A DNA stretch of 33,769 bases from a virus. The notes under the pieces were generated by a model. That model did not search any database. It had not been told where the DNA came from and worked only from the letters and a program-made list of their open reading frames with translations. Position 1 is the first letter of the stretch. Each line of letters opens with the position of its first letter. The stretch lies in the IMG/VR virus record IMGVR_UViG_3300033571_011898, positions 1 to 33,769 of that record; one strand, 5' to 3'. Positions 88 through 24,700 of this stretch are shown here, one piece after another. The position numbers and the translations under genes were made by a program.

Positions 88-409
88 ATGGGTATGTATG
101 AGTGGTGAAGATAATTATTATGCTCCAGTCTTTGTTGAGAAGATGTTAAAGGCAGGAGAGAACCATCACTTTGTTTATTGTGATATGGTCCACAATTGGA
201 TGAATCAAGAATATATTCCAATCAAATCAACATTACAATACGGAACAATAGATATTGGAAACTTTATGTGTAAGACCAATATGGGTAAAAGAATAAAACT
301 ACAAACAACAATCTCAGAAGCAGACTGGTTATTCATAGAGGAGTTTAGAAGAAAGTTTGAACACGCAAAAATAAAAAAGGTCAACGGAGTATTGTATGTC
401 CACAATTGA
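1..409 (+). CDS. GT2-like glycosyltransferase, C-terminal part (gene spans the circular join)
   Basis: This is the 3' part of the gene that begins at 33507; joined across the repeat, the protein is 194 aa. The frame is open from base 2. The join region contains an acidic SGEDN motif (about residues 93-97 of the joined protein) where GT-A enzymes carry the metal-binding DxD. The tail (SEADWLFIEEFRRKF) resembles the C-terminal helices of short phage GT2 proteins. It is short for the family and probably contains only the nucleotide-sugar domain. The last 14 bases overlap the start of the large terminase, so the two are probably co-translated. An internal ATG at 68 is not the real start. Donor and acceptor cannot be read from the sequence. 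Confidence 0.75.
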   Translation, partial: RIRLTILAQRHQDWGHTPRQYGLDNATEEWVCMSGEDNYYAPVFVEKMLKAGENHHFVYCDMVHNWMNQEYIPIKSTLQYGTIDIGNFMCKTNMGKRIKLQTTISEADWLFIEEFRRKFEHAKIKKVNGVLYVHN

Positions 410-1727
410 TATAACTCCAACCAAGAGACAGAGTGAAGCGTGGCGTTACCTCACAGATGACAAGACCAATATAGTTTTATTTGGTGGGTCAGCTGGTGGA
501 GGAAAGTCTTGGTTGGGTTGTTTATGGATTGCAACAATCTGTTTAAGATATAAAGGTGTCAGATGTTTGGTTGGTAGAAGTGTATTAACACAATTAAGAT
601 TAACCACACTCAATACATTATTTGAATTACTTAATACTATGGGATTAAAGAGTGGTGAACATTTCAATTACAATGGACAAAGTAATGTTCTTACATTCTA
701 TAACAAGAGTGAGATTATATTCAAGGACCTTGCGTACAACCCATCAGATCCCAACTATGATAGTCTTGGTTCATTAGAGGTATCGGCTTGTTTCATAGAT
801 GAGGCCAGTCAAATTTCGTCATTAGCGTACAACATCGTTAAGTCTCGTATAAGATATAAACTAAATGAATATAAACTTATACCAAAAGTCTTAATGACTT
901 GTAACCCTGCAAACAATTGGATTAAGAAGGATTTTTATTTACCACATACACAAGGAAGATTGGATGAGAACAAAGTGTTTATTCCTTCCTTACCTATGGA
1001 CAATCCACACTTACCACCAACCTATATTGATATGTTAAAGGAGTTACCTCCACAACAAAGAAGAAGATTATTGGAAGGAGATTGGGATTATTTGGATGAG
1101 ACAGATAGTCTATTCAAGTTTGATGAAATATCAAATAGTGTATTTAGATATAGTCCAAATACAACTGATAAGAAGTATATGACAATAGACGTAGCAAGGT
1201 TTGGTGATGACAGGTCCGTGGTGATGGTGTGGGTGGGACTGGTTCTCGTAGAATGTCACGTGTATAGGAAACTATCAACCACAGAATTATCGTCCAATAT
1301 ACAGGACCTAATGCGTTCACACGGGATACATCCAAATAATTGTATTGTGGATAGTGATGGTGTAGGAGGCGGAGTTAGTGACCAATTGAGAGCAACCAAC
1401 TTTGTCAACAACGCAAGACCATTACACGAACAGAACTTCTCCAATCTAAAATCACAATGTTATGTAAAACTATCTGATATGTTTAGGGAAGGTAAACTAA
1501 GTTTGAATATATTGGAACCAAGTGTGATAGATGACTTGACACAAGAGTTACTTAGTGTTAAATTAAAAGATATAGATAAAGATAATAAAGTACAGGTACA
1601 ATCAAAGGATGAAATGAAAAGGATATTAGGAAAGTCTCCTGACCTTTCAGATTGTATGATGATGAGAATGTTACCTGAAATAAAAACCCAAAAGACAACG
1701 GGTAGATACGCAATAATGCAAATATAA
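396..1727 (+). CDS. terL: Terminase large subunit (packaging ATPase/nuclease)
   Basis: This 443-aa protein is the packaging motor that pumps DNA into the prohead and cuts it. The N-terminal ATPase has a Walker A motif GGSAGGGKS (residues 30-38), a Walker B ACFIDEAS with acidic residues D135 and E136, and a coupling motif LMTCNPAN (about 166-173). The C-terminal RNase H-like nuclease begins with TIDVARFGDDRS (263-274, D265 and D272), followed by CIVDSDGVGGG and, near the end, PDLSDCMMMRM, which supplies the third acidic position. Length and motif order are normal for TerL. It overlaps the upstream glycosyltransferase by 14 nt. The small subunit candidate lies at 31273, with the HNH/methyltransferase/glycosyltransferase cassette between the two, which is unusual. 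Confidence 0.95.
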   Translation: MSTIDITPTKRQSEAWRYLTDDKTNIVLFGGSAGGGKSWLGCLWIATICLRYKGVRCLVGRSVLTQLRLTTLNTLFELLNTMGLKSGEHFNYNGQSNVLTFYNKSEIIFKDLAYNPSDPNYDSLGSLEVSACFIDEASQISSLAYNIVKSRIRYKLNEYKLIPKVLMTCNPANNWIKKDFYLPHTQGRLDENKVFIPSLPMDNPHLPPTYIDMLKELPPQQRRRLLEGDWDYLDETDSLFKFDEISNSVFRYSPNTTDKKYMTIDVARFGDDRSVVMVWVGLVLVECHVYRKLSTTELSSNIQDLMRSHGIHPNNCIVDSDGVGGGVSDQLRATNFVNNARPLHEQNFSNLKSQCYVKLSDMFREGKLSLNILEPSVIDDLTQELLSVKLKDIDKDNKVQVQSKDEMKRILGKSPDLSDCMMMRMLPEIKTQKTTGRYAIMQI

Positions 1728-1728
1728 C

Positions 1729-2460
1729 ATGTTAAAATTCAAACTAAATGAAATAGAATATAAACTACCTGACTTTATATCTATTGAGAATTATGCAAAG
1801 ATTTACAAGGTAAAAGATTTATTCAGTGATGATTATTTTGCAGCAAAGATTATTAACATAATCACAGACGCACCATTAGAAGAATTATTGGAGGCAGACT
1901 ATGAGGAAGTATCATACTTAGCCGCATACATCATGTCACAGATACCATTAGAAAAACCAAAGTTCGTAGATAGATTTGAATTGGATGGTGTTCACTATGG
2001 GTTCTTTCCTAATTGGAGGGAGTTAACTTTTGCAGAGTTTGTGGATATGGATACCATCTCAACAAAGAAACCTGATGAGTTATTGAATATGTTACACATA
2101 CTTGCTGCAGTTATGTACAGACCAATCGTAGAAGAAAAGTCAGAACATGATTATAAAATAGAAAAGTATAATGTGGAAACGATGAAAGACAGGTCGGAAC
2201 TGTTCAAAAAGAAATTAGATATTAAGTACGTTCTCGGAGCACAGTTTTTTTTTATCAACTACGCAAACAGATTTTTAAATTATTCCCATCTGTCTTCGAT
2301 GCCGACACTCTCGATTTGGATGAAACTGAAACTAATGTGGGTGATGAGGAGATGGATATTCGCAGCAATTTTCAAAAGACGTATGGATGGTTCGTTGTCG
2401 TCAACAGAATTGCTGGAAACGATTTTACGAAACACGAAGTTATCTATCAAAAGAAACTAA
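1729..2460 (+). CDS. Tail-assembly-chaperone-like protein, zero-frame product
   Basis: The first 175 codons look genuine: an N-terminal helical region, then a conserved-looking block (FELDGVHYGFFPNWRELTF, LNMLHILAAVMYRP, YKIEKYN) that I associate, from memory, with a family in uncultured Bacteroidota phages next to tail genes. At a run of nine T (2245-2253) the character changes. In this frame the last 68 residues become Trp- and Met-rich and shadow-like, whereas the -1 frame continues as a normal protein for 97 residues. The zero-frame C-terminus is therefore either the short product of a slippage pair, as in lambda G/GT, or an artefact of a miscounted homopolymer. It starts 1 nt after the terL stop. 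The chaperone role is inferred from position and frame change. Confidence 0.6.
   Translation: MLKFKLNEIEYKLPDFISIENYAKIYKVKDLFSDDYFAAKIINIITDAPLEELLEADYEEVSYLAAYIMSQIPLEKPKFVDRFELDGVHYGFFPNWRELTFAEFVDMDTISTKKPDELLNMLHILAAVMYRPIVEEKSEHDYKIEKYNVETMKDRSELFKKKLDIKYVLGAQFFFINYANRFLNYSHLSSMPTLSIWMKLKLMWVMRRWIFAAIFKRRMDGSLSSTELLETILRNTKLSIKRN
2245..2253 (+). other. T9 slippery run / frame-change site
   Basis: Nine consecutive T follow a CAG codon. Read in zero frame they give FFF then INYAN; slipping back one base gives FFF then YQLRKQIFKLF, and the -1 frame stays open to 2546. Such runs support -1 ribosomal or transcriptional slippage and are also the place where a base can be lost in sequencing. 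A tenth T would restore the long frame. Confidence 0.7.
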
Positions 2461-2546
2461 TTGAGATATTAAACCAACTATCGTATTTATTAGATTACGA
2501 TAGGGAACAAAAGAAATTACAAAATAAACAGGTCAAAACAATATAA
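2253..2546 (+). CDS. Minus-1 frame extension of the chaperone-like gene
   Basis: This segment is the -1 frame continuation of the gene starting at 1729; the fused product would be 272 aa. It reads as a normal soluble domain: FYQLRKQIFKLFPSVFDAD, an acidic linker (DLDETETNVGDEEMD), then KTYGWFVVVNRIAGNDFT and a helical C-terminus (KKLIEILNQLSYLLDYDRE). The GW...AGND..K pattern resembles, from memory, the C-terminal part of the same family in other phages where it lies in a single frame. It has no good start of its own; the ATG at 2316 falls inside the domain. It ends 17 nt before the next gene. I consider it truly translated, by slippage or because the true T run is longer. Confidence 0.65.
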   Translation, partial: YQLRKQIFKLFPSVFDADTLDLDETETNVGDEEMDIRSNFQKTYGWFVVVNRIAGNDFTKHEVIYQKKLIEILNQLSYLLDYDREQKKLQNKQVKTI

Positions 2547-2563
2547 TTTTATATTTATAGTAT

Positions 2564-3568
2564 ATGATAGTTAATTATAAAACAATAATCCAAGATTTAA
2601 GTGGGATTGCGTACTATCACAATCAGATTAATTCCTTCGGATATGGTGACATAACACAAATCACCATGGATATTGAAACAAAACAAGAACCCCTATATAC
2701 AAAAATGTATGTAGTACCTGGTTCTGTACAACTAGCACAAAACAGACTATTATATAATCTTTCAATTATAATATTAGACCAAATTAATGATGACTATTCC
2801 AATCAGGAAGAAGTTATGTCAGATACACTTGAGATTTGTAAGGACGTATTTACAATACTCTACCAATCCTACACAGCCAATTATGGTGGTTTTTCTATTG
2901 ATTATACTCCACTATGGGGTCCAAATGTTACACCGTTTACAGAAAGATTTGAAACGATTTTAGGTGGATGGACGATGAACTTAACAATAGAACAACCCTT
3001 CGATTATAATACTTGTGTACTTCCAATATCAGGATTCACAGTACCAGCAAGTGTAAACAAAGTAACTTACTATCAAATTATAGATGATCTAAGAGATTTA
3101 TCTGTAGCACACGAACAAATCAATTCATTTGGATTTGGTGACATTACCCAATTAACTATGGATATTGAAACCAAACAATCACCTATATATACAAAATTAT
3201 ATGTGGTTCCGAATGATACAGTATTAGCACAAAATCAATTAACATATAATTTCCAAGTAATAGTAGCCGATAGGTTAAAGGATGACTACTCCAATCAGAG
3301 AGATGTAATGAATGACACACTTGAAATAATGAAAGATGTGTTCACCTTCTTATATTTATCAGAGTATGAAAGTGAGTGGGACGCCACAGTTGAACCATTT
3401 TTAGAAAGATTTGAGGATGTACTGGCAGGGTGGACAATGAGTTTAACACTAACACAACCTTTTGACTACAATAGATGTAATGTCCCTGAAAGACCCTTCG
3501 TAAATAAGAAGTGGTATGAACTAGCAGAATTATGGAACACTATATCTACTGACTGGAAAAACGTATAA
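2564..3568 (+). CDS. Tandem-duplicated tail-terminator/neck-like protein
   Basis: This 334-aa protein consists of two copies of one domain of about 150 residues (roughly 3-152 and 170-313). In the core, from INSFGYGDITQ to FTILYQS in copy 1 and INSFGFGDITQ to FTFLYLS in copy 2, 56 of 81 aligned residues are identical by my hand count. Both copies end with a PFxERFExxxxGWTM block followed by QPFDYNxC. Single-domain relatives occur, as far as I recall, in Bacteroidota phages beside tail genes, where a tail terminator or head-tail joining role is plausible. The start is preceded by an AT-rich leader containing TATATTTATAG and no Shine-Dalgarno site. The function is inferred from neighbours; the duplication is directly visible. 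Confidence 0.55.
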   Translation: MIVNYKTIIQDLSGIAYYHNQINSFGYGDITQITMDIETKQEPLYTKMYVVPGSVQLAQNRLLYNLSIIILDQINDDYSNQEEVMSDTLEICKDVFTILYQSYTANYGGFSIDYTPLWGPNVTPFTERFETILGGWTMNLTIEQPFDYNTCVLPISGFTVPASVNKVTYYQIIDDLRDLSVAHEQINSFGFGDITQLTMDIETKQSPIYTKLYVVPNDTVLAQNQLTYNFQVIVADRLKDDYSNQRDVMNDTLEIMKDVFTFLYLSEYESEWDATVEPFLERFEDVLAGWTMSLTLTQPFDYNRCNVPERPFVNKKWYELAELWNTISTDWKNV

Positions 3569-3588: not shown

Positions 3589-5829
3589 ATGGGTCAACTT
3601 ACCAATCAATATGTTTCACAATCTTATCAAGGTTTATTAAACCTTGAAAATCCATTTACAGGAGTTACCAATTCTTTACAATATGTAACGGATGGTCTTG
3701 GTGGAAATACATCATTACAAATATCATCTACGGAAACTAAAGTTACAGGTTCTTTATATGTAACAAATGTTCCAAGTGGTAGTTCTTCAAATCAAGTATT
3801 GGTTTGGAACACAAGTACTAATAAAGTAGAAAGAAGAACTGACGCAGGAACTTCAGGAACTAGTGGTACGTCAGGTACCAGTGGAAGTAGTGGTACCTCA
3901 GGTTCATCAGGAACTAGTGGAAGTAGTGGTACCTCAGGAACTAGTGGAAGTTCAGGAAGTAGTGGTACGTCAGGTTCTTCAGGAACGAGTGGTAGTAATG
4001 GTTCAAGTGGTACGTCAGGTACTAGTGGAAGTTCAGGAAGTAGTGGTACCTCAGGAACATCGGGTTCTTCAGGTACCAGTGGTAGTGATGGAAGTAGTGG
4101 AACTTCAGGAACAAGTGGAAGTGATGGAAGCAGTGGTACGTCAGGAACAAGTGGTACATCAGGAACAAGTGGTGATAGTATATTTGCACAAACAGGAAGT
4201 TTTTGGGCTACAACAAATAATATACAAATTACAGGTTCTTTAATAGTATCTGGTTCAGAAACTATTACTAGTAATTTACAAATGTTCTCACCATCTTCAA
4301 TACTGAATGCATCTGTTCAGCCAGGTGCATACATTACATCTTCTTTACCTGTATCACAATCAAATGTAATATTTGCAAATGTAACAACCGCAACATCACA
4401 AGGTTCTTTACTTGCTAGCTTTACAGGTTCAATTGTAATATCAGGTTCAAATAATATTTTATTTAACTCAAATAGAACTAATACATTAGTTTTAGCAGGA
4501 AGTTATGGATATATTGGTGGTAATAATAATACGTTAATTCAAATACCAACATTAAATACTGGTTCTGTTTATAGACCAGCGTTTAATGGAAATTATTCAA
4601 ATGCTGCAACAATTTTAAGATTTACATCAGGATCTTTAGCACAACCATCAATTGCAAATAATGTGATATATGGTACATATAACATCACACACGATAGTAG
4701 TTCAGTAAGTCACGCAAATAATCTAATTTTTGGTACATTCACAACAATTCATACAGGTAGTCAAGCGGTTGCACAACAAACATTTGCAAATAATATTGTA
4801 AATGGAACTTTAACTCATACAGATTATACATCATCGATTGTTAATATGAGTAATAATAATATCGCTGGTGCATCACACACACTAAACAACTTTTACCATA
4901 CTACAGTCGGTTCAAATACAATAGCATTCAATAGAAACTTTTTAGCAGGACAATTAAATACTGTAACTATATCGGGATCAACAATAACAGGTGGAGCAAG
5001 AGCAGTAAGTGATAGTATATTTGGTGGTTTTACAAATGAAATTATTTCATCAGTATCAGGAAGTAATAGTGGTAGTCTTTCTGCAACTCTTTTATATGGT
5101 CGTCAACTTGTTTTAAGAGGTAATAGTGCACCCACTACAGGAGGTAGTGCTTTCTTAGGTAGATTTAATGACTCAGGTTCTTTATCAAATTCAGAAGATA
5201 TTGTATTTGCAGTTGGTACAGGTACAGGAGCAGGAAACAGAAGAACAGGTTTCTATATTGATAGTGGAAGTAATGTTGTTACATCAGGTTCACTTACAAG
5301 TATTGGTAATGCAACAATCACAGGTTCATTAAATGTGACTGGTTCAGTTACAATTGCAAACGCAGGTGACCTTACGATGTATGGACACAAGATGTTTAAT
5401 GCTGCTGAGTTTTGGTCTAATACGACACAAAGCGGAAGTGCTGGTGTAAGTGGTTCATTAAACTTTGATGCTTCGGGTAGTGCTGTAGGTGTATCATTAG
5501 TAAGTGGTTCAAGATTAACTGTTGCGAATGGTGGTACATATAATGTACAATTCTCAGCACAGATTGAAACATCTGCTGGTTCTGATACAGCATATGTATG
5601 GTTTAAGAAAAACGGAACTAATGTTAGTGATAGTGCAACAAAAGTTGTATTAGCAAATAATACTGCACAGGTAATGACGGTGAATATATTGGATGAAGCA
5701 GCTGCAAATGACTACTATGAATTGGGTTATCAGTTTACAAACGGTAACGCAACCGTATTAGCAGAAGTGGCATCAGGTAATATACCAGCAATACCATCAG
5801 TAATAGCAACAGTAACACAAGCAAGATAA
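3589..5829 (+). CDS. Collagen-like tail fibre protein (Gly-Thr-Ser repeats)
   Basis: This 746-aa structural protein begins with about 85 residues of likely virion-attachment domain (MGQLTNQYVSQSYQGL...). Residues 87-195 have glycine at every third position without a break (37 glycines), mostly GTS and GSS with occasional GSN and GSD. Such repeats can form a collagen-like triple helix and suit a trimeric fibre shaft. The middle is rich in Ser, Asn and Gly with repeated beta-strand-like NNI/SGS segments, suggesting a beta-solenoid or repeated-strand shaft. The last 150 residues (from about GDLTMYGHKMF) look like a jelly-roll head of the C1q/TNF type, with SAQIETSAGSDTAYVWFKKNG. It lies upstream of the baseplate genes. 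The fibre role is well supported; the receptor is unknown. Confidence 0.75.
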   Translation: MGQLTNQYVSQSYQGLLNLENPFTGVTNSLQYVTDGLGGNTSLQISSTETKVTGSLYVTNVPSGSSSNQVLVWNTSTNKVERRTDAGTSGTSGTSGTSGSSGTSGSSGTSGSSGTSGTSGSSGSSGTSGSSGTSGSNGSSGTSGTSGSSGSSGTSGTSGSSGTSGSDGSSGTSGTSGSDGSSGTSGTSGTSGTSGDSIFAQTGSFWATTNNIQITGSLIVSGSETITSNLQMFSPSSILNASVQPGAYITSSLPVSQSNVIFANVTTATSQGSLLASFTGSIVISGSNNILFNSNRTNTLVLAGSYGYIGGNNNTLIQIPTLNTGSVYRPAFNGNYSNAATILRFTSGSLAQPSIANNVIYGTYNITHDSSSVSHANNLIFGTFTTIHTGSQAVAQQTFANNIVNGTLTHTDYTSSIVNMSNNNIAGASHTLNNFYHTTVGSNTIAFNRNFLAGQLNTVTISGSTITGGARAVSDSIFGGFTNEIISSVSGSNSGSLSATLLYGRQLVLRGNSAPTTGGSAFLGRFNDSGSLSNSEDIVFAVGTGTGAGNRRTGFYIDSGSNVVTSGSLTSIGNATITGSLNVTGSVTIANAGDLTMYGHKMFNAAEFWSNTTQSGSAGVSGSLNFDASGSAVGVSLVSGSRLTVANGGTYNVQFSAQIETSAGSDTAYVWFKKNGTNVSDSATKVVLANNTAQVMTVNILDEAAANDYYELGYQFTNGNATVLAEVASGNIPAIPSVIATVTQAR
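3847..4173 (+). repeat. Coding tandem repeat for collagen-like Gly-x-Ser triplets
   Basis: This stretch is built from 9-base-period units such as GGTACGTCA, GGAAGTAGT and GGAACTAGT, encoding uninterrupted G-[TS]-[SND] triplets of the fibre protein. Synonymous codons vary between units, so the protein pattern is better conserved than the DNA. The number of units could vary by recombination or be miscounted in a short-read assembly. Confidence 0.85.
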
Positions 5830-7904: not shown

Positions 7905-10900
7905 ATGTCGCAATTACAACAAACAGTCCTTAGAGTTAAAACAAATGTATTAAGTGATTTAAATGTTACTGGTACAACATCAATATCTCTTACAGGAAAC
8001 ACAGGAGGATTTGTATATTCAGGTGGAACAGGTACATCAAGTTCACCATATACAGGTAATTACCCAACAGTCCCATCATTTTTAACAGTTAATGTTACAG
8101 GTAATGGTACATTATATTTTGATTTTACATTATATAGTGTGAGTGTTGGTGGTAACTATCTACAAATATATATACAACATGCTGGTGAGACCTTCTCAAG
8201 AAAGGTTTTAACAAGTTATCCTCTTAGTGCAAATAGTTATGCTGATTATTTTAAAGTACAAGGTGGAGATATTGTTACATTTAAACAAGGAGGTTCACCA
8301 GTTACAGGAACAAATTATAGTATATATATGGTTCCTGATACAGAATTTATTAAACAAGGGGTATATGAATATGATAATTTAGATTTATATACCGATATTC
8401 CAATTAAAATTAATAAGTCATTTGCTGAATTACAGGACATTTCAAAGAAAAATTCTAATTATTCAGTGGGTCTTAGATTACCTGGTAGTAAAAAGAATAA
8501 TAGATTCTTTGAAAATTTCTATGATGTTGATCAAACATCTTTATATTTTGATGTTACAAAAAAGGTACAATGTGATGTATTAATAAATGACCAAAGTTAT
8601 TTTACAGGTTATTTAAGACTCAATAGTGTTGGTGTACAAAATTCCAAAGTAGAGTATGACGTTACATTATATTCATCTGTTGCAGATTTATATGGTAATA
8701 TTGGAACTAAATTATTAAAGGATTTGAACTTTAGAGATGCTGATTATTTTTATAATCATCAGTTCAACAGGGACAACACATTATATGGTTGGAGATATGA
8801 AAGTCTAAGGTCATCAAATGTAATTCCCTCAACATGGTTTTATCCTGTTGCACATAACGGATATGTTTATGTAAATACAGGAAACACTTTAACAGTACAA
8901 ACAGGTACAACATCAGGTACATCAATATATACAACAACTAAATTAGGTAGTTTTGCAACTGCTGCGGCTGCATACGCTGCGGGTTCTCAAAGAGGACATA
9001 TCAATTCAGTTGAGGATGGTGTAAGAGATAATCAATTAAAACCAGCACTTAATGTTTATGGTTTGATACAATTGATTTTCAAAGAAAACGGATATTCAAT
9101 TAGTTCAGATTTTTTTAATTCTCCATGGTTTAAATTATTATATACCTATGGATATTTTTCTGATAATAATCCTAAGTTATCTTTTACAGCACCAGTTTTA
9201 TCTACATTTGGTCCATCAGGTGTTGATGTATTATATACACAAACTGGTACAACAAACATAACTATGTATGTTGTTAAAGCAGGAACAGGTACACCTGCAC
9301 TATGTAATACAAACATTACAGGTACATTAACAATTAGAAATAATTCTTTTGGTTTTCTTATTCCCGTTGGGTTTACAATACCAGCAAATACACCTGAATA
9401 TGCAATAAATTGGAGTGCCGGTAATTCATTATATAATTTGACAACTTCGGTTGGTGTGGTTAACAGACCGTTAAACTATCTACCATCTCAAAGTGGTACA
9501 ACTGTGGATATGGTTGATGGTGAGTATTTGGATATGAATTTATTGATAAATCCTGATATAAAACAAATTGATTTTCTTTCATCAATTGCAAAGAAATTTA
9601 ATTTAGTTTTTGTTCCAAATAACAATAATCCAAATGAAATAATAATTGAACCATACGAATATTATGTAGGTAAAGGTAGTGTATATGATTGGACAGATAA
9701 ATTAAGTTATGATAAAGGATTTACTGTACAACCAGCACAGAACTTTGTTGAGAGTGAGTTATATCTTTCAGAAAAAGAAGATGGTGATGCAGGTAATGAC
9801 GAGTTTAAAAAGACAAACAATAGGATATATGGTAGAAATTTAATACCAAACCCAACTGATTTTAAATCTACAGAGAAAAAGATTGAGACAATATTCTCAC
9901 CACAATTATTAAGAAAGTGGAATCCTTCGTCTTTAACAGGGGTTACAAACGATGTGGGTATCCCACTTATGTTAAATTATGCGGAAACTTCTCAAGAGAA
10001 TGATAATGTCGTAGATTGGACATATTCAGGTGTTAAGACAAACCCAAGATTAATATATAACATGGGTAACTTCTCACCATTCTTGGATAATCCACAAGAG
10101 ATTATTACTCTTACAGGTTTCACATCATATTATTATAAAATTGAAAAGAATGATGGTACAGATCCTCAGGGTAGTTTGGTAAATCCTGTGGTATCTCATA
10201 CAATACCATTAGGTAATCCTGATAGTAATAAAATTAATAACGATAGTATATCTATCCTTTTTAATTGTGAACCACAAGTAGATATACAAGGTAAGACTGT
10301 ACAATTATTAGGTAGTGGTTCCACATTAAATATTTTCACAGAACAAAACGCATATAATTTATTCTATTTTGATAGAGTACAAAATTCATATAATAAAAAT
10401 ACAAGATTTTTATCAGGGTATTTTGATTTGAATATAAATGATGTAAATAATTTGGAAGCAGATGATTTAATTAAAGTAAATGACCAATATTTTACTTGGA
10501 ATAAAGTTGAGGAGTTTAACTTATCCAATCGTGAACTTACAAAAGTTGAATTGGTACAATTTAATAATAATCCAAATTATTATCCGTCAAGATATTTTAA
10601 ATATCAGTATTGTTCGGGTGATACTACAACTTATAGGTTTAAAACAGATTTTACAGAATCTCAAAGCATTCAAGGTACGAGATACTATTGGTCAATCTTC
10701 TACGATTATATGGTAGGAGCATTAGGTGGTAATGTGAGTGGTTTCACATCATCAATACCATATACTGGTAACACATATGTACCATATTCCATTCGTGAAG
10801 TTACAGAAGCAGATTATAATGCAAGTGGTACAACATTCCTTTCTGACCCATTAAAAAATTATTTTATTGATTCAGTAGAGGAAGCACCCGATGGTAATAT

Positions 10901-11243
10901 ATATAACCAAAGGAATCCTGTCTTTTTATTAAGTTCAGGACAAACAAAGGCTACCCTAAACGTATTTACAGGATGTACGGACTTTAATACACAAGCAGCA
11001 AATATTGGTGCAATTGTATATGGTTCACCAGCATCCTCACCTTATACAACGGGTATAACCATAAACGTAACAGATACAGGTTACATCAAATATTCAACAT
11101 CATCTTCAACAATTTATCAATATGTTGGTACATTAGGAAACTACGATATTCCTGATTGTGCATCTTGTTTATCAGTTGCTGTTGGTATCCCATTTGCAGA
11201 CCTTGCATCATTTACAATTGTTGATTGTGGAAACCCTTGTTAA
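7905..11243 (+). CDS. Large tail-tip / baseplate hub candidate
   Basis: This 1112-aa structural protein is one of the two longest in the genome. The segment around residues 550-610 (IDFLSSIAKKFNLVFVPN, then IIIEPYEYYVGKGSVYDWT, then KLSYDKGFTVQP) resembles the gp27/tail-hub fold, in which a strand-rich domain contacts the tail tube. The N-terminal 160 residues are Gly/Thr-rich beta-structure. The C-terminal 150 residues contain several cysteines (CASC, then CGNPC at the end), resembling the small Cys-containing C-terminal domain of the protein at 13319. No protease or lysozyme motif is visible, so any cell-wall cleavage at the tail tip cannot be read from it. The hub assignment is moderate; structural nature is near certain. 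Confidence 0.55.
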   Translation: MSQLQQTVLRVKTNVLSDLNVTGTTSISLTGNTGGFVYSGGTGTSSSPYTGNYPTVPSFLTVNVTGNGTLYFDFTLYSVSVGGNYLQIYIQHAGETFSRKVLTSYPLSANSYADYFKVQGGDIVTFKQGGSPVTGTNYSIYMVPDTEFIKQGVYEYDNLDLYTDIPIKINKSFAELQDISKKNSNYSVGLRLPGSKKNNRFFENFYDVDQTSLYFDVTKKVQCDVLINDQSYFTGYLRLNSVGVQNSKVEYDVTLYSSVADLYGNIGTKLLKDLNFRDADYFYNHQFNRDNTLYGWRYESLRSSNVIPSTWFYPVAHNGYVYVNTGNTLTVQTGTTSGTSIYTTTKLGSFATAAAAYAAGSQRGHINSVEDGVRDNQLKPALNVYGLIQLIFKENGYSISSDFFNSPWFKLLYTYGYFSDNNPKLSFTAPVLSTFGPSGVDVLYTQTGTTNITMYVVKAGTGTPALCNTNITGTLTIRNNSFGFLIPVGFTIPANTPEYAINWSAGNSLYNLTTSVGVVNRPLNYLPSQSGTTVDMVDGEYLDMNLLINPDIKQIDFLSSIAKKFNLVFVPNNNNPNEIIIEPYEYYVGKGSVYDWTDKLSYDKGFTVQPAQNFVESELYLSEKEDGDAGNDEFKKTNNRIYGRNLIPNPTDFKSTEKKIETIFSPQLLRKWNPSSLTGVTNDVGIPLMLNYAETSQENDNVVDWTYSGVKTNPRLIYNMGNFSPFLDNPQEIITLTGFTSYYYKIEKNDGTDPQGSLVNPVVSHTIPLGNPDSNKINNDSISILFNCEPQVDIQGKTVQLLGSGSTLNIFTEQNAYNLFYFDRVQNSYNKNTRFLSGYFDLNINDVNNLEADDLIKVNDQYFTWNKVEEFNLSNRELTKVELVQFNNNPNYYPSRYFKYQYCSGDTTTYRFKTDFTESQSIQGTRYYWSIFYDYMVGALGGNVSGFTSSIPYTGNTYVPYSIREVTEADYNASGTTFLSDPLKNYFIDSVEEAPDGNIYNQRNPVFLLSSGQTKATLNVFTGCTDFNTQAANIGAIVYGSPASSPYTTGITINVTDTGYIKYSTSSSTIYQYVGTLGNYDIPDCASCLSVAVGIPFADLASFTIVDCGNPC

Positions 11244-11258
11244 AACTATTTATATAAT

Positions 11259-13304
11259 ATGAGAGGAAGTATTTTAGTAACATTTGACGAATATTTGGAT
11301 GGTAGAGGTGGACAAAACTATTCTTTAACTGTTGGTGGAGAATCAAGGGATTCACATTTTACAGATGCAAATAATCTTTATTCTACATTTGTAACAACAG
11401 GTCAAACAGTAGTTTTTACTATTAATAGGGCAAGTTATATATATAAATCAGAAGTTGTAATAAAAAGATTAGATTTTACAAATGATGATGAGGCGGGAGA
11501 TAGAGGTATTAAGGAAACAATTATAAGTCCTGTTATTACTCATCCAAGTGCAGATTCATCTGTTTATACTTTTACTGCAACGACAATAAATTCAGCATAT
11601 AATTATCATTATGTAATTGATGCTGGTATATCGATTTGTTATAATAATGCTAGTGGATTCACAGGTGGGTCTGGTTCAGAAGTAACAGATATAGATTTAT
11701 TATCAACAGGAAAAATAATTATAAGTGGTGAATATACGGCATACAGTGGTATTAGCGCAAATAGAATTGTTCAATTAAATGATGATGGTACTGTATATTC
11801 AGGATTCAGTTATGGTTCAGGATTTACACCTGATACAACAAATGAAATTGCAGAATTATCGGATGGTAAATTAGTAATAGTAGGACAATTTACAAACTAT
11901 AATGGAACATCTTGTAACAGAATTATTGGATTAAATGCTGATGGTACTGTTAATACAGGATTTACAACAGGTACAGGATTTAACGGAGACCCTGGCCCAA
12001 TAGAAAAACAATCTGATGATAAAGTTATTATTGGTGGTAGATTTTGGGAATATAATGGTACAACATCACCAAAAATTATTAGATTAAATACAGACGGTTC
12101 ATATGACAATACATTCGTTGTAGGTTCAGGATTTACAAGTGGAGGTACATTTAATGATTTAAATTCTGAAGTAAGTTGTTTAGCAATTCAATCAGATGGT
12201 AAAATAGTTGTTGGTGGTAACTTTGATGCCTATAGTGGTACAAGTATTACAAGAATTTGTAGATTAAATTCTGATGGTTCTTTGGATAATACATTTAGTA
12301 CGGGTACAGGATTAAATGGTTTACCTGTTGAAATTAAAGTACAGTCTGATGGTAAGATATTAGTTGGTGGATTCTTCACGTCTTATAATGGAACTACATC
12401 AAATAGAATTATAAGATTAAATACTGATGGTTCTATTGATGGGACATTTTCAATTGGTACAGGTTTTAATAATCCTGTTTATGCAATTGAATTTACTTAT
12501 GATTTTAAAATTATAGTTGGTGGACAATTTACAAACTATAATGGAACATCAAGACAGAATTTAATTTCTTTAAATTCAAATGGATCGATAGATACACAAT
12601 TTATCGCTACAGCAAATAGTATTGTTTATTCAATTTTAGTATTACCTGATGGTGATGTAATGGTTGGTGGTGCTTTTGGTGTTGTTAATGGTGTTGCAGT
12701 ACAAAGAATTGTAAGATTAGGACGTACAGGTAGTTTATATAGTTGTTTAGAACCAACTCCAACACCTACTCCTACACCAACGATGACTATAACACCAACG
12801 ATGACTATAACACCAACACCTGGTACACCAACACCAACGATGACACCTACTTTTACTATAACACCTACTTTTACTATAACACCGACCATAACTCCAACAT
12901 TTACACCCACACCAACAATAACTCCAGGATTTTGTCCTGAACTTACTGTTAGTAATTTAGTACTTACAAATATTAGATATTATAGGGGTAAATATTTAAA
13001 TTCAGATTTAAGTGTTACTGTTAATTTAGGACCAACTTGGTATAATGTTTATACTTTTCCTAATGATGGTAATATGTATGTATTTGCACAGTATAGGAAT
13101 CAGAATTTTGGTCAATGGAATGATGTAATGGGAGTATTATTACCACCTATACAAACATTTACATTTAGTGACTTTTTTGGTCCTGCTTTACCAGTTACTG
13201 AAAGTGGGGACTTAATATATCTAAGATGGTTAACTTATTGTAATGATGGCGGACCAAGTTTTGTAATATCTAATGAATTGATTATTGATAGAAATAATCC
13301 TTAA
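11259..13304 (+). CDS. Tail fibre with seven delta-60-type repeats (beta-propeller) and Pro-Thr linker
   Basis: This 681-aa protein has four parts. Residues 1-140 form a beta-rich N-terminal domain, probably the attachment to the tail tip. Residues 145-497 hold seven copies of a unit of about 45-50 residues with the pattern QSDGKIxVGGxFTxYNGTxxNRIxRLNxDGSxDxTF, which matches the delta-60 repeat family; seven copies suggest a complete seven-bladed propeller. Residues 499-557 are a Pro-Thr linker, and 558-681 a compact C-terminal domain (LVLTNIRYYRGKYLNSDLSV...). Copies 1, 6 and 7 are the most diverged, as expected at propeller edges. A receptor-binding role is inferred. It lies between the hub candidate and a second Pro-Thr fibre. 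Confidence 0.7.
   Translation: MRGSILVTFDEYLDGRGGQNYSLTVGGESRDSHFTDANNLYSTFVTTGQTVVFTINRASYIYKSEVVIKRLDFTNDDEAGDRGIKETIISPVITHPSADSSVYTFTATTINSAYNYHYVIDAGISICYNNASGFTGGSGSEVTDIDLLSTGKIIISGEYTAYSGISANRIVQLNDDGTVYSGFSYGSGFTPDTTNEIAELSDGKLVIVGQFTNYNGTSCNRIIGLNADGTVNTGFTTGTGFNGDPGPIEKQSDDKVIIGGRFWEYNGTTSPKIIRLNTDGSYDNTFVVGSGFTSGGTFNDLNSEVSCLAIQSDGKIVVGGNFDAYSGTSITRICRLNSDGSLDNTFSTGTGLNGLPVEIKVQSDGKILVGGFFTSYNGTTSNRIIRLNTDGSIDGTFSIGTGFNNPVYAIEFTYDFKIIVGGQFTNYNGTSRQNLISLNSNGSIDTQFIATANSIVYSILVLPDGDVMVGGAFGVVNGVAVQRIVRLGRTGSLYSCLEPTPTPTPTPTMTITPTMTITPTPGTPTPTMTPTFTITPTFTITPTITPTFTPTPTITPGFCPELTVSNLVLTNIRYYRGKYLNSDLSVTVNLGPTWYNVYTFPNDGNMYVFAQYRNQNFGQWNDVMGVLLPPIQTFTFSDFFGPALPVTESGDLIYLRWLTYCNDGGPSFVISNELIIDRNNP
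12753..12929 (+). repeat. Coding Pro-Thr repeat in fibre linker
   Basis: This low-complexity run (units such as ACACCAACACCT and ACGATGACTATA) encodes the TPTPT/TITPT linker of the propeller fibre. A closely similar run occurs about 1 kb downstream in the next gene, including an almost identical ACACCTGGTACACC stretch, so the two could recombine. Confidence 0.8.
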
Positions 13305-13318
13305 AATATTTATAAATT

Positions 13319-14191
13319 ATGAGTAGAAAATATATAAGACAACAAATTTTACAGGATTTTGTCTACCCAAATAACGAAGTATCACAATATGATATTGATA
13401 ATATTGTACATGACCTGAATGGAAATAGTGTTACTGGTGTTGTAAACTCATTCAGTGCAACAACTTTCACATCATCAAGTCTTTCAATAAGTTATAATAT
13501 AACTTGGAATTTAAATGGTGCTGAGCCTTGGATTAGAAACTCAAATACTTTAGGAATTGTATCTGTACATATGTTGGCACCAACTCAAAATTATTACAAA
13601 CCTTGGAGGGTGGTTAGTTCTTTATCTAATTCAACTTTAACATTAACAGGTCTTACTGCAACACAAACCGCAACAATAACTCCTTCAGATGTTGGTTTAA
13701 CAACATTTACAAGTGGAACATATTATTTTGAGGTAAGATTTATTGGTCATAGAAGTATCTATCCTGTATGTGTTAATTTAAGTTTGACACCAGCTACACC
13801 TACACCAACTCCTACTTCAACAATAACACCAACACCAACATTTACTCCGACACCTGGCGTTACGACAACACCTACCCCTACAATAACCCCAACACCTGGT
13901 ACACCTACTCCTACACCTACTCCTACACCTACACCAATACCTTTAAATGAATATGGTTTCTGTGGTAGAGGTAATAGTGTAAGTGAATCTTGTAACGATG
14001 CGGGTCTTAACAATAGAACATTCTATTCTGATTGTGATAGTGGTTCATTCGGTGCAGGTTGTACAGTTTATGTGGATTCCGCAGGTAATACACCATTAAC
14101 AGGATATACAAACATATTTATGAATGGTGCTAATTATGATATAAATTCATCAACAGGAGTTGTAACAGCATACTCATCAATACAGTGTTAA
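13319..14191 (+). CDS. Second Pro-Thr-linker fibre with Cys-containing C-terminal knob
   Basis: This 290-aa protein has a beta-sandwich-like N-terminal domain (1-155; FSATTFTSSSLSISYNITW, then YYFEVRFIGHRSIYPV), a Pro-Thr linker (157-208) and an 82-residue C-terminal domain (209-290). The C-terminal domain has cysteines at 215, 225, 239, 248 and 290 and the pattern TFYSDCDSGSFGAGCTVYVD, TPLTGYTN, INSSTGVV. I recall similar small knobs in Bacteroidota phage and surface proteins, with a variable binding role. The architecture parallels the preceding gene. It begins 14 nt after it behind an AT-rich leader (ATATTTATAAATT). A receptor-binding or decoration role is inferred; no enzymatic motif is seen. 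Confidence 0.6.
   Translation: MSRKYIRQQILQDFVYPNNEVSQYDIDNIVHDLNGNSVTGVVNSFSATTFTSSSLSISYNITWNLNGAEPWIRNSNTLGIVSVHMLAPTQNYYKPWRVVSSLSNSTLTLTGLTATQTATITPSDVGLTTFTSGTYYFEVRFIGHRSIYPVCVNLSLTPATPTPTPTSTITPTPTFTPTPGVTTTPTPTITPTPGTPTPTPTPTPTPIPLNEYGFCGRGNSVSESCNDAGLNNRTFYSDCDSGSFGAGCTVYVDSAGNTPLTGYTNIFMNGANYDINSSTGVVTAYSSIQC
13787..13942 (+). repeat. Coding Pro-Thr repeat in second fibre
   Basis: Units such as CCTACACCAACT and ACACCAACACCT encode (TP)n with inserted TIT, TFT and PGV. The DNA closely matches the run at 12753-12929, and synonymous changes show that the two have diverged. Confidence 0.8.
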
Positions 14192-14407: not shown

Positions 14408-17086
14408 ATGGCTGGTAAAAAGATTTTTATTGAGTATGACATTGATAGTAGTGACTTAAAGATTGCTAATGGGGAAACCTTATCACTTACTCAACAACTC
14501 CGTTTATTAAAGAAAGAATTACAAAGGGGTGATTTAAAACCTGAACAATTTGATATTCTTCGTAAAAAGATTGGTGATACTGAGGACCAAATTGCTAGAA
14601 CAACCGTAAAGTCTAAGGACTTTTTTGGTGTTTTATCAACCTTACCTGGCCCTGTTGGTCAGTTTGGTGGTTCACTATTGGCGGTAGTAGATACACTTAA
14701 AGTTTTTAGTTCGTTCTCTTTCAAAGACATTAAAAACTCTTTAAGTGATATTGGTGATGATGTTGTAGAAATTACAAGAAATTTTACAGGATTAGGTAAA
14801 TCAACTCAAGACGTTGGTCAAGCAAATAAAGATTTAGTTACATCAAATCAAGAACTTGCATCATCATCAAATCAGTCAGCAATTGCGGCGGGTGCAACTG
14901 CGGGTGCAATATCAACACAAAAGAAAGAAACTCAATTATTAAGAATTGAAACCGACCAAACAGGTCAAGCGATGATTAAGGCGGTCAAACCTATTAAGGA
15001 TATGACCAAAGAGGAACTTGAGTTATTTAAACAACAAAGAAATAGAGTTGTTCATACAAAAGATTTAACTCAAGCAACCAATGCACAAGCTGTGGCAAGT
15101 GAGACTGCAACTGTCGCAACAACTACTCAAACTGTTGCAACACAGACATTAACTGTTGCACAAAGGGCGGCAACATTTGCAACAAACGCGTTAAAAATTG
15201 CGTTGGCTTCTTTAGGTATTGGTTTGATTATTATTGCGGTATCTGAATTGGTTAGTTTAATTTCTGAATTTGCTTCAGGTACAAAAGAGGCGGAAAGGGC
15301 ACAAAAACAATTTAATGATGAATTGGAAAGAACCAATACATTATTGGATTTAGATTTAAAGGCAGCAAAAAGAAGACAAGATTTAAGGGTTGCAGAACTT
15401 AAGGCGAGAGGTGCATCAGAGAAAGAAATTAATGACCAAACACTTGAAGGGTTAAAAGAAAACTTCGCCTTAAAACAACAGGCGTTGGAAGATGCAAATG
15501 CGTTATACAACAAAACATTAAAAAGAAATGATGAGAACGCATTAAAGGATTTAGAAACCATCGGTAAAAAACAACTTGATTTGGACCAAGAGGTTAAAGA
15601 CCTTAGAAACCAAATTAAGATTGCTGAATTACAAGATGATATTAAGGCTGCAGAAAAAAGAAAAGAACAAGATAAGGCCGCAGCAGATAAACTTGCACAA
15701 CAAAGAAAAGAAGCAGAACAAAAAAGAATTAACGATACTAAGAGTGCAGAAGATCAACTTGCTGAGTTAATTAGAAGTAATTCTGAACTTAGAATAAGAG
15801 ATGAGAGAGAAAGACAATTCCAAGAGTTAAAGAATCAGAAACAAGTAGAAGAAGAAAAGATTAAGGCGTTATCAATATCTGAGGAGTTAAGAGGTAAACT
15901 ACTTGAACAAGTAAGATTGAAGTACGGATATAAGTTACTCAACATGAACCAAAAGTTCGTTGAGGAGGATTTGAAAGCGTTAAAAGAATTTCAAAGAAAG
16001 AGAGAGGATATTGAAATTTCTGCAATTGAAGATACAAGAAAGAGAGAAGATGCAGAAAGAGAAGTAAAATTAAAAAGAGATTTAGAGGATTTAGAGGAGG
16101 ATAAAGAATTTGCAAAGTTATCTGAGGAAGCAAAAGAGGAAATAAGAAAGAATATCCGTCAAAGATATGCGAATGAGGCAAGAGAAGAAACTAAATCAAG
16201 AAATAAAGAAGACCAAGATGACAGATTAAAGAAACTTGATGATGAGTTAAGATTCTTACAAATACGTCAAGAGGCGATTAGGGCAGGTACCAAAGCATTC
16301 TTTGATAGTCAAAGAGAAATTCTTGCGGTTGCAGAAAAGAGAGAAATAGAACTTGCTGAAGGTAAGGAGCAAGAAATTACCGCAATCAAAGCGAAGTATG
16401 CGAAGTTAAGGAAGGATATTGACCAACAAGAGAAGATGGCTACATTATCAGCCATCGGTGAGACAATCGGTGCGATTGGAAACTTAACCGCAGCAATTGC
16501 GGCATCTTATGATGAAGAAGCCAAGACAAGTAAAGAGGCGTTTGAAAAGAGAAAGAAATTACAGATTGCAACTGCGGTAATGTCAGCTGCATCAGGTATT
16601 ATACAAATCTTAACTCAACCTTCAACACTTCCTTCACCATTCGATTGGATTGTAAAAGGTATTAACGCAGCTGCACTTGCAGTAACAACCGCGGTACAGA
16701 TTAAGAATATCAAGAACACTAAGTTTGAAGACCAAGGTGGTGGAACAAGACAGGCTGGTACTGTAAGAGGTATGGCTAATGGTGGTATCGTAAGAGGACC
16801 TGGTGGACCTAAATCCGATAGTGTTCCAACTAACCTATCAAATGGTGAGGCGGTAATGACAAGCGGTGCAGTGACCATGTTTGCACCATTACTATCTATG
16901 ATGAATCAAATGGGTGGTGGTGCATCGTTCAGTTCTGACATTAGTGTTGCATCTGCTGATAACCCAATTAGAAATAATCCATCACAGGAACAAACACCTG
17001 TAATAATGAAGACCTATGTAGTTGAAAGTGAATTAACAACCTCTCAACAGAAACAGGCTAGGTTAAAAGAATTATCAACTTTATAA
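14408..17086 (+). CDS. Tail tape measure protein
   Basis: This 892-aa protein sets tail length and is ejected with the DNA. Long charged coiled-coil stretches (about 290-700; Glu/Lys/Arg-rich with heptad character) flank a hydrophobic segment at about 261-290 (LASLGIGLIIIAVSELVSLI). Further hydrophobic segments lie near 718-770 (AVMSAASGIIQIL, INAAALAVTTAVQI). The C-terminus is Gly-rich (MANGGIVRGPGG, then LSNGEAVMTSGAV), a pattern common in tape measures of Bacteroidota phages. At about 1.5 angstrom per residue, the usual rule, the tail would be about 130 nm, consistent with a siphovirus. The start follows a TATAATATG leader without a Shine-Dalgarno site. Confidence 0.9.
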   Translation: MAGKKIFIEYDIDSSDLKIANGETLSLTQQLRLLKKELQRGDLKPEQFDILRKKIGDTEDQIARTTVKSKDFFGVLSTLPGPVGQFGGSLLAVVDTLKVFSSFSFKDIKNSLSDIGDDVVEITRNFTGLGKSTQDVGQANKDLVTSNQELASSSNQSAIAAGATAGAISTQKKETQLLRIETDQTGQAMIKAVKPIKDMTKEELELFKQQRNRVVHTKDLTQATNAQAVASETATVATTTQTVATQTLTVAQRAATFATNALKIALASLGIGLIIIAVSELVSLISEFASGTKEAERAQKQFNDELERTNTLLDLDLKAAKRRQDLRVAELKARGASEKEINDQTLEGLKENFALKQQALEDANALYNKTLKRNDENALKDLETIGKKQLDLDQEVKDLRNQIKIAELQDDIKAAEKRKEQDKAAADKLAQQRKEAEQKRINDTKSAEDQLAELIRSNSELRIRDERERQFQELKNQKQVEEEKIKALSISEELRGKLLEQVRLKYGYKLLNMNQKFVEEDLKALKEFQRKREDIEISAIEDTRKREDAEREVKLKRDLEDLEEDKEFAKLSEEAKEEIRKNIRQRYANEAREETKSRNKEDQDDRLKKLDDELRFLQIRQEAIRAGTKAFFDSQREILAVAEKREIELAEGKEQEITAIKAKYAKLRKDIDQQEKMATLSAIGETIGAIGNLTAAIAASYDEEAKTSKEAFEKRKKLQIATAVMSAASGIIQILTQPSTLPSPFDWIVKGINAAALAVTTAVQIKNIKNTKFEDQGGGTRQAGTVRGMANGGIVRGPGGPKSDSVPTNLSNGEAVMTSGAVTMFAPLLSMMNQMGGGASFSSDISVASADNPIRNNPSQEQTPVIMKTYVVESELTTSQQKQARLKELSTL

Positions 17087-17245: not shown

Positions 17246-19156
17246 ATGAAGAAAGATAAAACATACGAATTAAGGATAGAAGAAGATGATGAAATATCAG
17301 GTATCGACAGTATATCTTTAGTTTCTGAACCAGCAATTGAGATAAATTGGGTTGCGTTCAATAAAGTCAAACCTGAGGACTTTCATATCCCTGATGGTGA
17401 AGACGACAAATACATACAAAAATTAGTTGCAACCGCACAGAACGAACAGGAATTGTTTGACGAAGGATGGGTTGTAGATAGTGTTGAGATATTGGATGGT
17501 AAGAATAGTTTTATTTCTACAGATCCTAATGGACCTTCTATGGAAGATGAATTGGAATATAATGTTAGATACAAGTATATTCTAAATCCTCGTATATCAG
17601 GACAAGGACCTATCATCAATACCACAAGAGATTTTTGTAAGACTCTTATCAATCGTAATTACGTTTGGAGAGTTGAGGATATGGAAAGAACACAGAATGA
17701 CTTTGGTCAGGCTGCTATGGTTTGGAGAGGTGGTTACAATTGTAGACACGTATGGTCTCGTATCAAATACAGAAAGGATGCTACAATTGTAAACAAGGCG
17801 TCAGTTAACAAAGGTAAAGTAGAAGTTAATGGATTCCCAAATGACTTAGTTCCTGATACAAGAGTATTAGGATATTCTGAACCTGATACAGTTACAAACA
17901 AAACTCTTGCAAATCCATCACCTTCTACAATTAGAAACTTAGGATTGTCAAAAGAGAAAATGGAAATAGATGACCAAAACGTAAATGTATTTGGTTATCA
18001 TACAAGATACTTTGCACTATGTCCATCAGCACAAGAACTATTCAGACACCTTGTAACTATGGAAGTAGATGAAGATACACAAGGAATGATTAGAAGTGCG
18101 GCACGAGCGGCAGATAATGTTTTTAAAATTGAAATTGAAGTAGTTAAATCAGAAGAAGTAACACAACATCAATACGAAGAAGCACTCATATCAGTTGATG
18201 ATATAAAAGATATTATGTCTGAGGTTGATAAAAGAGTAGGTATGGAACACGACTTATCTTTTATGGATGACCATATTGAACTAATTTCTGAGTATCTAAA
18301 AGAGGATTTGGGTTATGACAATAACTTACCTCCTTTCGTTGATGAAGGTATTAGAAAGAAAAAGAAGAAGAAACAAGAAATGGAAAGTTATTCTGACTAT
18401 CCTGATTCTGTTAAGAACAACGCTAAGGCGGTACTTAAATGGGTTGATGAAAATGGATGGGGTTCTTGTGGCACTGATGTGGGAAAACAGCGTGCAAACC
18501 AACTCGCAAATGGTGAAGCCATTTCGGAGGACACGATTAGGCGCATGTATAGTTACCTATCAAGACATAAAGTAGATTTAGAAAGTTCTAAAGGTTATGG
18601 TGATGGTTGTGGTAAGTTGATGTACGATAGTTGGGGTGGTTTATCTGCATTAAGTTGGTCTGAGAGTAAAATCAATTCTATTGATAGGGAGAAAATGTCA
18701 AAACAAATGTTCCAAGCAGACGATGATAAACGTATTGTTGTTGGTCCAGCTATGGTTCCTGATTTGAAGATATTCCGTAAAGATAAAAAGGGTAACCCTT
18801 ATTATGTTACGTTCAAAGCCGATACAATTAAAATGATTATGGAGAAGTATATGAGAAACAAATATACTGACAATAACGACACAGAACATGATGGTAAAGC
18901 TGCTGACGATGTATATGTAATTGAGTCTTGGATTAAGGAAGATAAAGAAGATAAGTCCAACAAATATGGATTTGAAGACCTACCCATAGGTACATGGTTT
19001 GTATCTATGAAAGTTAGAAATGACGAGGTATGGCAGAAAATAAAGAACAAAGAATTGAATGGATTTAGTGTCTCAGGATACTTTGAGGAGATAGAACAAT
19101 TCTACAGAGAACAAGAGTTTTTAAGAGAAGTAGCTAAAATCATAAAAGATTTATAG
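17246..19156 (+). CDS. XkdF-type head maturation protease with inserted head-protein domains
   Basis: This 636-aa multidomain protein ends in an XkdF-like prohead protease: GPAMVPDLKIFRKDKKG, an EHDG motif (catalytic His near 548) followed by DDVYVIESW, then GTWFVSMKVRNDEVW and GFSVSGYF (Ser near 607). The N-terminus carries the associated strand ISGIDSISLVSEPAI (18-32). Between lie a Mu-F-like block (RDFCKTLINRNYVWRVEDM, then GGYNCRHVW, about 127-171) and a helical domain YPDSVKNNAKAVLKWV to DTIRRMYSYLSRH (about 385-445) that is common in phage head proteins. It therefore seems to fuse a minor head protein with the protease. It is followed by the scaffold candidate and major capsid protein, the usual order. 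Its leader is TTATTTATATTTTAGTATATG. Confidence 0.8.
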   Translation: MKKDKTYELRIEEDDEISGIDSISLVSEPAIEINWVAFNKVKPEDFHIPDGEDDKYIQKLVATAQNEQELFDEGWVVDSVEILDGKNSFISTDPNGPSMEDELEYNVRYKYILNPRISGQGPIINTTRDFCKTLINRNYVWRVEDMERTQNDFGQAAMVWRGGYNCRHVWSRIKYRKDATIVNKASVNKGKVEVNGFPNDLVPDTRVLGYSEPDTVTNKTLANPSPSTIRNLGLSKEKMEIDDQNVNVFGYHTRYFALCPSAQELFRHLVTMEVDEDTQGMIRSAARAADNVFKIEIEVVKSEEVTQHQYEEALISVDDIKDIMSEVDKRVGMEHDLSFMDDHIELISEYLKEDLGYDNNLPPFVDEGIRKKKKKKQEMESYSDYPDSVKNNAKAVLKWVDENGWGSCGTDVGKQRANQLANGEAISEDTIRRMYSYLSRHKVDLESSKGYGDGCGKLMYDSWGGLSALSWSESKINSIDREKMSKQMFQADDDKRIVVGPAMVPDLKIFRKDKKGNPYYVTFKADTIKMIMEKYMRNKYTDNNDTEHDGKAADDVYVIESWIKEDKEDKSNKYGFEDLPIGTWFVSMKVRNDEVWQKIKNKELNGFSVSGYFEEIEQFYREQEFLREVAKIIKDL

Positions 19157-24371: not shown

Positions 24372-24700
24372 AAAATAGATTAGAAATGGTAAGAAACATC
24401 AGATTGGAATTATCTGGTGTTAAGGTTAACAAACCTAAAGAGAACCTACAAGATGACGGATTAGAGGGTGCATGTTGGGAAGGGTATGAACCTATAGGTA
24501 TGAAGGAGAAAGACGGTAAAATGGTCCCTAATTGCGTACCAGTGGAAGCCAAGAAGGTTAAGGAAGGTTTCCCTATTCCATCACCTGAAAGTGGTGAGGA
24601 TGAAAATAGTTTTATCTCAAGATGTATGAAAGAGATTGGTGGTGAGTACGACCAAGACCAAGCGTTAGGAATTTGCTACAGTAAACTACGTGGCGAATAA
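24368..24700 (+). CDS. Small protein with PNCVP and Cys-containing head-protein-associated motif
   Basis: This 110-aa protein holds two motifs I recall from phage head proteins: CWEGYEPIGMKEKDGKMVPN followed by CVP (about 36-57), and SFISRCMKEIGGEYDQDQAL followed by GICYSKL (about 81-107). These usually sit inside larger protease, portal or head proteins; here they make up a free-standing gene. It is coupled to the previous gene by an ATGA overlap and ends the + strand transcription unit. Function unknown; four cysteines may bind metal or each other. Confidence 0.55.
   Translation: MKNRLEMVRNIRLELSGVKVNKPKENLQDDGLEGACWEGYEPIGMKEKDGKMVPNCVPVEAKKVKEGFPIPSPESGEDENSFISRCMKEIGGEYDQDQALGICYSKLRGE

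Follow-up and report, generated by a model that had tools for sequence, protein, structure and literature searches.

A T-run junction kept throughout a terL-adjacent phage gene family points to programmed −1 frameshifting into a long dual-coding overlap

Does a run of nine T in the gene next to a viral terminase mark a frameshift that belongs to the normal reading of that gene, or a base that has been lost from a single reading frame? The question is raised by IMG/VR virus record IMGVR_UViG_3300033571_011898, of which the whole stretch of 33,769 nucleotides (the window) was analysed. A sequence-only reading had placed the run at 2245–2253 and a continuation of 97 codons in the −1 frame up to 2546, and both placements hold. 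The T9 lies on the plus strand with its in-phase heptamer T_TTT_TTT at 2247–2253, and the −1 frame translates as FFFYQLRKQIFKLF across the run, followed by 97 codons from 2253 and a TAA that ends at 2546. The zero-frame ORF at 1729–2460 encodes 243 amino acids (29.0 kDa) and closes with TAA at 2458–2460, and a slip at T9 would, as computed from the sequence, give a fusion of 175 + 97 = 272 amino acids (32.5 kDa). The features referred to below are the following.

396–1727, plus strand: terminase large subunit (TerL), directly upstream, with PHROG and Pfam matches
1729–2253, plus strand: shared N-terminal domain, G-like, 175 codons including the T run, conserved in relatives and homologous to phrog_32199/Nonlabens phage gp40
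2245–2253, plus strand: putative slippery site T9, kept in 176/176 family and 81/81 sister-clade loci
2253–2546, plus strand: T-like domain in the −1 frame, 97 codons and stop, acidic overall, with a conserved motif and a predicted fold; would complete the 272-aa fusion
2254–2460, plus strand: C-terminal tail of the 243-aa form in the zero frame, 68 codons and stop, basic (about +9), open in the family, where stops are avoided and synonymous change is reduced
2564–3568, plus strand: next gene, phrog_30964 family by PHROG match, function not known, same order in Nonlabens phage P12024L
5831–6316, plus strand: phrog_29822, whose P12024L relative also matches tail completion/Neck1
14408–17086, plus strand: tail tape measure protein, from the PHROG/Pfam search

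The T9 by itself is at chance level in the window, where four T9/A9 runs were observed and 5.1 are expected from shuffling of this 33% GC sequence. In-phase T7/A7 heptamers are found also in five other window genes, and in the two of these five whose −1 frame was followed it is not long, stops being reached after 4 and 19 codons. What exceeds chance is the conservation of the site. An N-domain query extending up to the T run retrieved 78 viral contigs with 61–96% identity, and profile searches with the N and T domains added more. In all 176 family loci carrying both domains, T7, T9 or T10 with an in-phase T_TTT_TTT marks the junction; 174 of them encode the T domain in the −1 frame, and the other two have an upstream indel and the same junction. 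These loci include overlapping cuts of the same contig and near-copies, and number 82 once similar genes are removed. The sample consists mostly of metagenomic contigs, several of the counts include related loci, and the non-redundant test sets are still partly dependent. The N domain has 75% mean column identity among 35 aligned representatives and the T domain has the conserved motif YQxRKEIFxLFP...FQKxYGWF...NDFTKHE...EVLNQLS. AlphaFold predicts the −1 T domain alone to be mostly helical (mean pLDDT 77) and models the 243-aa form with a mean pLDDT of 78.

One of the two explanations offered in the sequence-only reading was a lost T, by which sequencing error, mutation or phase variation would have disrupted a single-frame gene. 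Homopolymers are error-prone and one extra T would join both domains; moreover, some predicted viral proteins of 258–267 aa, the BFVD entries A0A6J5N0W0, A0A516L5A8 and A0A516L611, match both the N and the T models, and single-frame versions may exist elsewhere. The −1 relation, however, was found in all of the 176 family and 81 sister-clade loci, none of which is fused in a single frame, and no run length that would join both frames is present among the 82 non-redundant clade-1 loci. A dual-coding overlap in which the zero frame avoids stops (see below) is inexplicable by error. With the −1 phase kept in every relative, the lost T is rejected as next to impossible. The other explanation, a programmed switch to the −1 frame, is supported by the conservation of both site and phase, and we estimate at roughly four in five the probability that programmed −1 frameshifting at T_TTT_TTT would yield two G/GT-like products, of 243 and 272 aa.

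With T_TTT_TTT in phase, the site has the form classically associated with tandem −1 slippage. In the proposed mechanism most ribosomes would stay in the zero frame at T9 and terminate at 2460, giving the 243-aa protein. A fraction would move back by one base on T_TTT_TTT, where the tandem Phe-tRNAs could again pair perfectly with UUU UUU, and would then translate the −1 frame up to 2546, giving 272 aa. An abundant short form and a rarer T-domain form would then set a ratio for assembly of the virion, probably of its tail, as do gpG and gpGT of lambda. In E. coli, frameshifting on U_UUU_UUU is less efficient than on A_AAA_AAG (PMC5009743). Downstream of the site no conserved RNA structure was found (24 aligned sequences gave no pseudoknot or hairpin consensus, and the folding energy was not unusual in any of five), nor any consistent Shine-Dalgarno-like stimulator. 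Because the heptamer is weak and no stimulator was found, the efficiency of the shift in the window may be low; the shift measured for two tail chaperone genes of an HK97-like cluster was 6–7% (PMC3711429).

The same two proteins could arise if RNA polymerase added a U on T9 and thereby produced a mixed pool of mRNA. A/T runs are avoided in many bacterial genomes at length nine, and some IS elements make use of 9T sites (PMC1088944). The sister clade has T9 or T10 at every site, T8 is absent in clade 1, and the lack of a detected RNA stimulator is likewise consistent with slippage of the polymerase. The run lengths in clade 1 argue against it. The 82 non-redundant loci comprise 70 T9, 11 T7 and 1 T10, always with T_TTT_TTT in the zero-frame phase, and the 11 loci with only T7, which is short for efficient transcriptional slippage, belong to several separate lineages. 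A T8 would be made by one first-codon change (Phe to Leu, Ile or Val). On the N-domain tree there are at least seven T7/T9 interchanges, at least three of which are forced by well-supported branches, and the heptamer appears to suffice because T7 and T9 repeatedly interchange. The first codon varies among T7 loci (ACT, TCT, AGT, CGT) but always ends in T, so that the exact in-phase heptamer is kept. The ribosome is favoured over the polymerase because these recurrent T7 sites keep the heptamer while the first codon changes. We infer slippage itself and its ribosomal nature from such sequence comparisons; ribosomal frameshifting is the probable mechanism, and transcriptional slippage would be an improbable one, though a serious rival.

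The −1 ORF could, thirdly, be expressed without fusion, as an overlapping gene in its own right that starts internally, and in P12024L the end of the T domain is indeed annotated as a separate small gene. In clade 1, however, none of the 82 loci has an ATG, GTG or TTG in the −1 frame between the preceding stop and the junction, and an independent internal start is rejected there on this ground. The first −1-frame start codon is usually 21 codons past the junction and beyond conserved residues, and conservation of the T domain starts at the first codon 3′ of the T run. A separate gene is thus very unlikely. In clade 2 a start codon was found in the −1 frame upstream of the junction in 11 of 136 loci.

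The frame that a ribosome would follow without slipping had been described in the sequence-only reading as turning Trp/Met-rich past the run. In nearly all relatives this frame has no stop for about 68 codons, and 35 of 35 representatives are stop-free in it up to a common end. When the −1 protein was redrawn synonymously with the codon usage of the family, the overlap was expected to contain 2.5–6.6 zero-frame stops, and by chance 0–3.6% of the draws for the 35 representatives, with a mean of 0.5%, left the zero frame free of stops; the average for 70 sister-clade loci was 0.36%. The +1 frame, used as a control, closes within 34 codons. In the closest pairs, wobble differences of the −1 frame affect 15% of sites in the overlap as opposed to 42% past the zero-frame stop. 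The ratio of synonymous diversity to expectation in clade 1 is 0.72–0.96 in the N part, 0.25–0.78 in the overlap and 0.81–0.97 beyond it, and in the sister clade it is 0.34–0.62 in most of the overlap (one stretch has 0.83) against 0.85–0.98 in the N part.

From the avoidance of stops and the reduced synonymous diversity in the overlap, we infer that the zero-frame tail is real and under purifying selection, and that about 68 codons are dual-coding over an overlap of about 205 nt. By the same evidence of selection, the zero frame past the run is no dead sequence. The related suggestion that the 243-aa product is not the sole protein is upheld as far as a second product is concerned; the by-product status that it implied for the zero-frame tail is not, both frames being selected. 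Both C-termini are conserved among homologues, and not the zero-frame one alone. The substitution pattern is that of the zero frame at codons 21–30 and 51–60 (the W-K-I-K-rich and SSTELL segments) and that of the −1 frame at codons 41–50 and 61–70. Across the family, the zero-frame tail has a median charge of about +10 and the T domain one of about −5; this opposition of a basic and an acidic tail may in part be a product of the genetic code itself. The locus could act as a two-tailed switch, in which one N domain carries either the basic zero-frame tail or the acidic −1 tail, both overprinted and functional and kept across a large superfamily of aquatic phages, and we give this an even chance. 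A zero-frame tail can evidently match the shifted tail in conservation, and gene callers retain one of the two products only. The overlap also provides natural replicates of overprinting, in which selection on each frame is measurable.

Beyond clade 1, the family of the window gene, a remote sister clade (phrog_32199, here clade 2) includes cultured phages. The AlphaFold model of the 243-aa form matches viral models, including that of a 175-aa protein of Nonlabens phage P12024S. In Nonlabens phage P12024L, gp40 lies directly after terL and has a T9 in the context ATA CTT TTT TTT TAT, past which the −1 frame runs on as FRERLRDLYPELY...WGWYHTFNVIAAS... to 24640; the T9 site of P12024S is the same. 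The N and T domains are annotated in both phages as two hypothetical genes. As annotated, gp41 of P12024L (24473–24640) corresponds to the C-terminal portion of the T domain in −1, so that a single frameshifted gene probably lies behind gp40 and gp41 and accounts for the two hypothetical genes; no description of phrog_32199 or gp40–gp41 as frameshifted was found in the literature searched. The protein gp40 is phrog_32199 (E 1e-125), which 26 of 35 family members also match (best E 7e-6). Homologous N domain, T9 junction, −1 T domain, location directly after terL and structural gene order are common to the window and P12024L, the difference being a zero-frame tail of only 25 codons in gp40 as compared to 68 in the window gene. 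With the Nonlabens phages in culture, the choice between ribosome and polymerase is directly testable.

The sister-clade N-domain profile, which ends before the site, aligns to the family with an hhalign probability of 99.4%. A scan with the sister-clade profile, the site being omitted from the query, found 80 viral contigs and another 5 in binned genomes, and all 81 loci that reach the junction have T9 or T10 with the T domain in −1, none of them fused. An earlier sister-clade sample, found partly via a pattern spanning the site, was excluded as independent evidence. The zero-frame tails of clade 2 are mostly 54–84 codons long, and 16–39 in a few. No clade-1 relatives were found in GTDB genomes, and tblastn revealed no isolated phages with relatives other than the Nonlabens phages. 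Some relatives are on contigs binned as Epsilonproteobacteria, Pseudooceanicola and Euryarchaeota; these are probably misbinned phage contigs, but the host range may exceed Bacteroidota.

The G/GT-like architecture that had been proposed finds support in the N-coterminal short and −1-extended forms with an in-phase heptamer. As in lambda-type G/GT genes, a shared N-terminal protein has a conserved −1 extension (176/176 and 81/81) behind an in-phase heptamer of the X_XXY_YYZ type, T_TTT_TTT. The early zero-frame stop of such genes is not found here, where it comes 68 codons past the slip site; from shift site to stop, the SEA-PHAGES tail chaperone set averages 26 nt (PMC10885494). Lambda gpG/gpGT likewise have one start, a −1 slip on a heptamer, and a short form beside a T-domain form (PMC5009743). 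They differ in having another heptamer and no detectable homology, and lambda slips near the end of G whereas 68 codons remain in the terL-adjacent gene. Unlike in lambda, the short form encoded in the window appears to have a basic C-terminal tail that is itself under selection and whose codons overprint those of the acidic T domain. Membership in the lambda-type G/GT class is not claimed, because position, overlap length and similarity all speak against it.

T-run slippage in such a gene had been called unusual, which is overstated. P2-like tail genes have T-run shift sites of T6G, T7G or T7C, P2 having T6G and Smp131 T7G, and phage morphogenesis genes with a T-run frameshift are a kind already known. 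P2 E/E+E' and Smp131 orf27/27.1 resemble the window gene in having T-run shift sites in tail genes, and no RNA stimulator was found in the P2-like cases either. P2 differs in its overlap of 37 nt (about 205 nt here), in the absence of detectable homology and in the location of the gene between tail tube and tape measure. Genes with transcriptional slippage on 9T, such as those of IS elements, are alike in outcome and in the run length that most loci have (PMC1088944), and differ from the window family, which has T7 variants and a strict heptamer phase. New within the reach of our searches are a family with no curated Pfam or PHROGs function, its aquatic breadth, its fixed place by terL and the long dual-coding overlap, and a widespread unannotated family is thereby added to the phage frameshift genes.

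It is the architecture that suggests a putative tail-chaperone role. No similarity to a known tail chaperone was found by Pfam, PHROGs or PDB fold search, and the PDB fold search with the 243-aa model gave nothing significant. TetR_C_19 was rejected as an identity, its matches being below the cut-off, and only phrog_32199 (function not known) was matched in Pfam/PHROG. Where a locus reaches far enough upstream, TerL directly precedes the gene in 164 of 164 cases in clade 1 and lies upstream of it in 130 of 132 in clade 2. The tape measure gene at 14408 is about 12 kb from the frameshift gene, which is therefore not at the expected position between tail tube and tape measure. The frameshift could thus be real and the protein serve packaging or the neck instead of the tail, as the terL neighbourhood, the distant tape measure and a Neck1/tail-completion relative among the downstream genes would suggest. 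On the other hand, a short and a long protein with the same N-terminus, made by a −1 frameshift, are a hallmark of tail chaperones, and a non-exhaustive search recognised no other frameshift pair near the tape measure. A role in packaging or the neck is a minority possibility in our view, though one to be taken seriously.

The structural gene order common to the window and P12024L is TerL, G/T, phrog_30964, phrog_29822 (Neck1-like), tape measure, protease, major capsid (phrog_11320), phrog_19091, portal and phrog_35048. By TerL the nearest phage is Flavobacterium phage 11b (46%), in which, however, the portal comes after TerL. Flavobacterium phage 6H gp10 was rejected as a further relative, the match being weak (E about 0.005) and a stop being found in −1 just after T_TTT_TTC. 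The weak N-domain relative lies at 10352–10927 on the minus strand of this phage and ends at T_TTT_TTC; beyond the stop that follows at once, its −1 frame meets no further stop for about 105 codons, in a gap that has no annotation. The window gene at 2564–3568 harbours two copies of a unit of about 165 residues, of which its P12024L relative (phrog_30964, 138 aa) has one. The long protein encoded at 17246–19156 has an XkdF-type protease at its C-terminal end and about 100 residues near its N-terminus that resemble part of a portal (phrog_33693), the P12024L relative being 349 aa. The genes at 3589–5829, 11259–13304 and 13319–14191 contain low-complexity repeats, SGTSGTSG and PTPTPT, and probably encode fibre or tip proteins.
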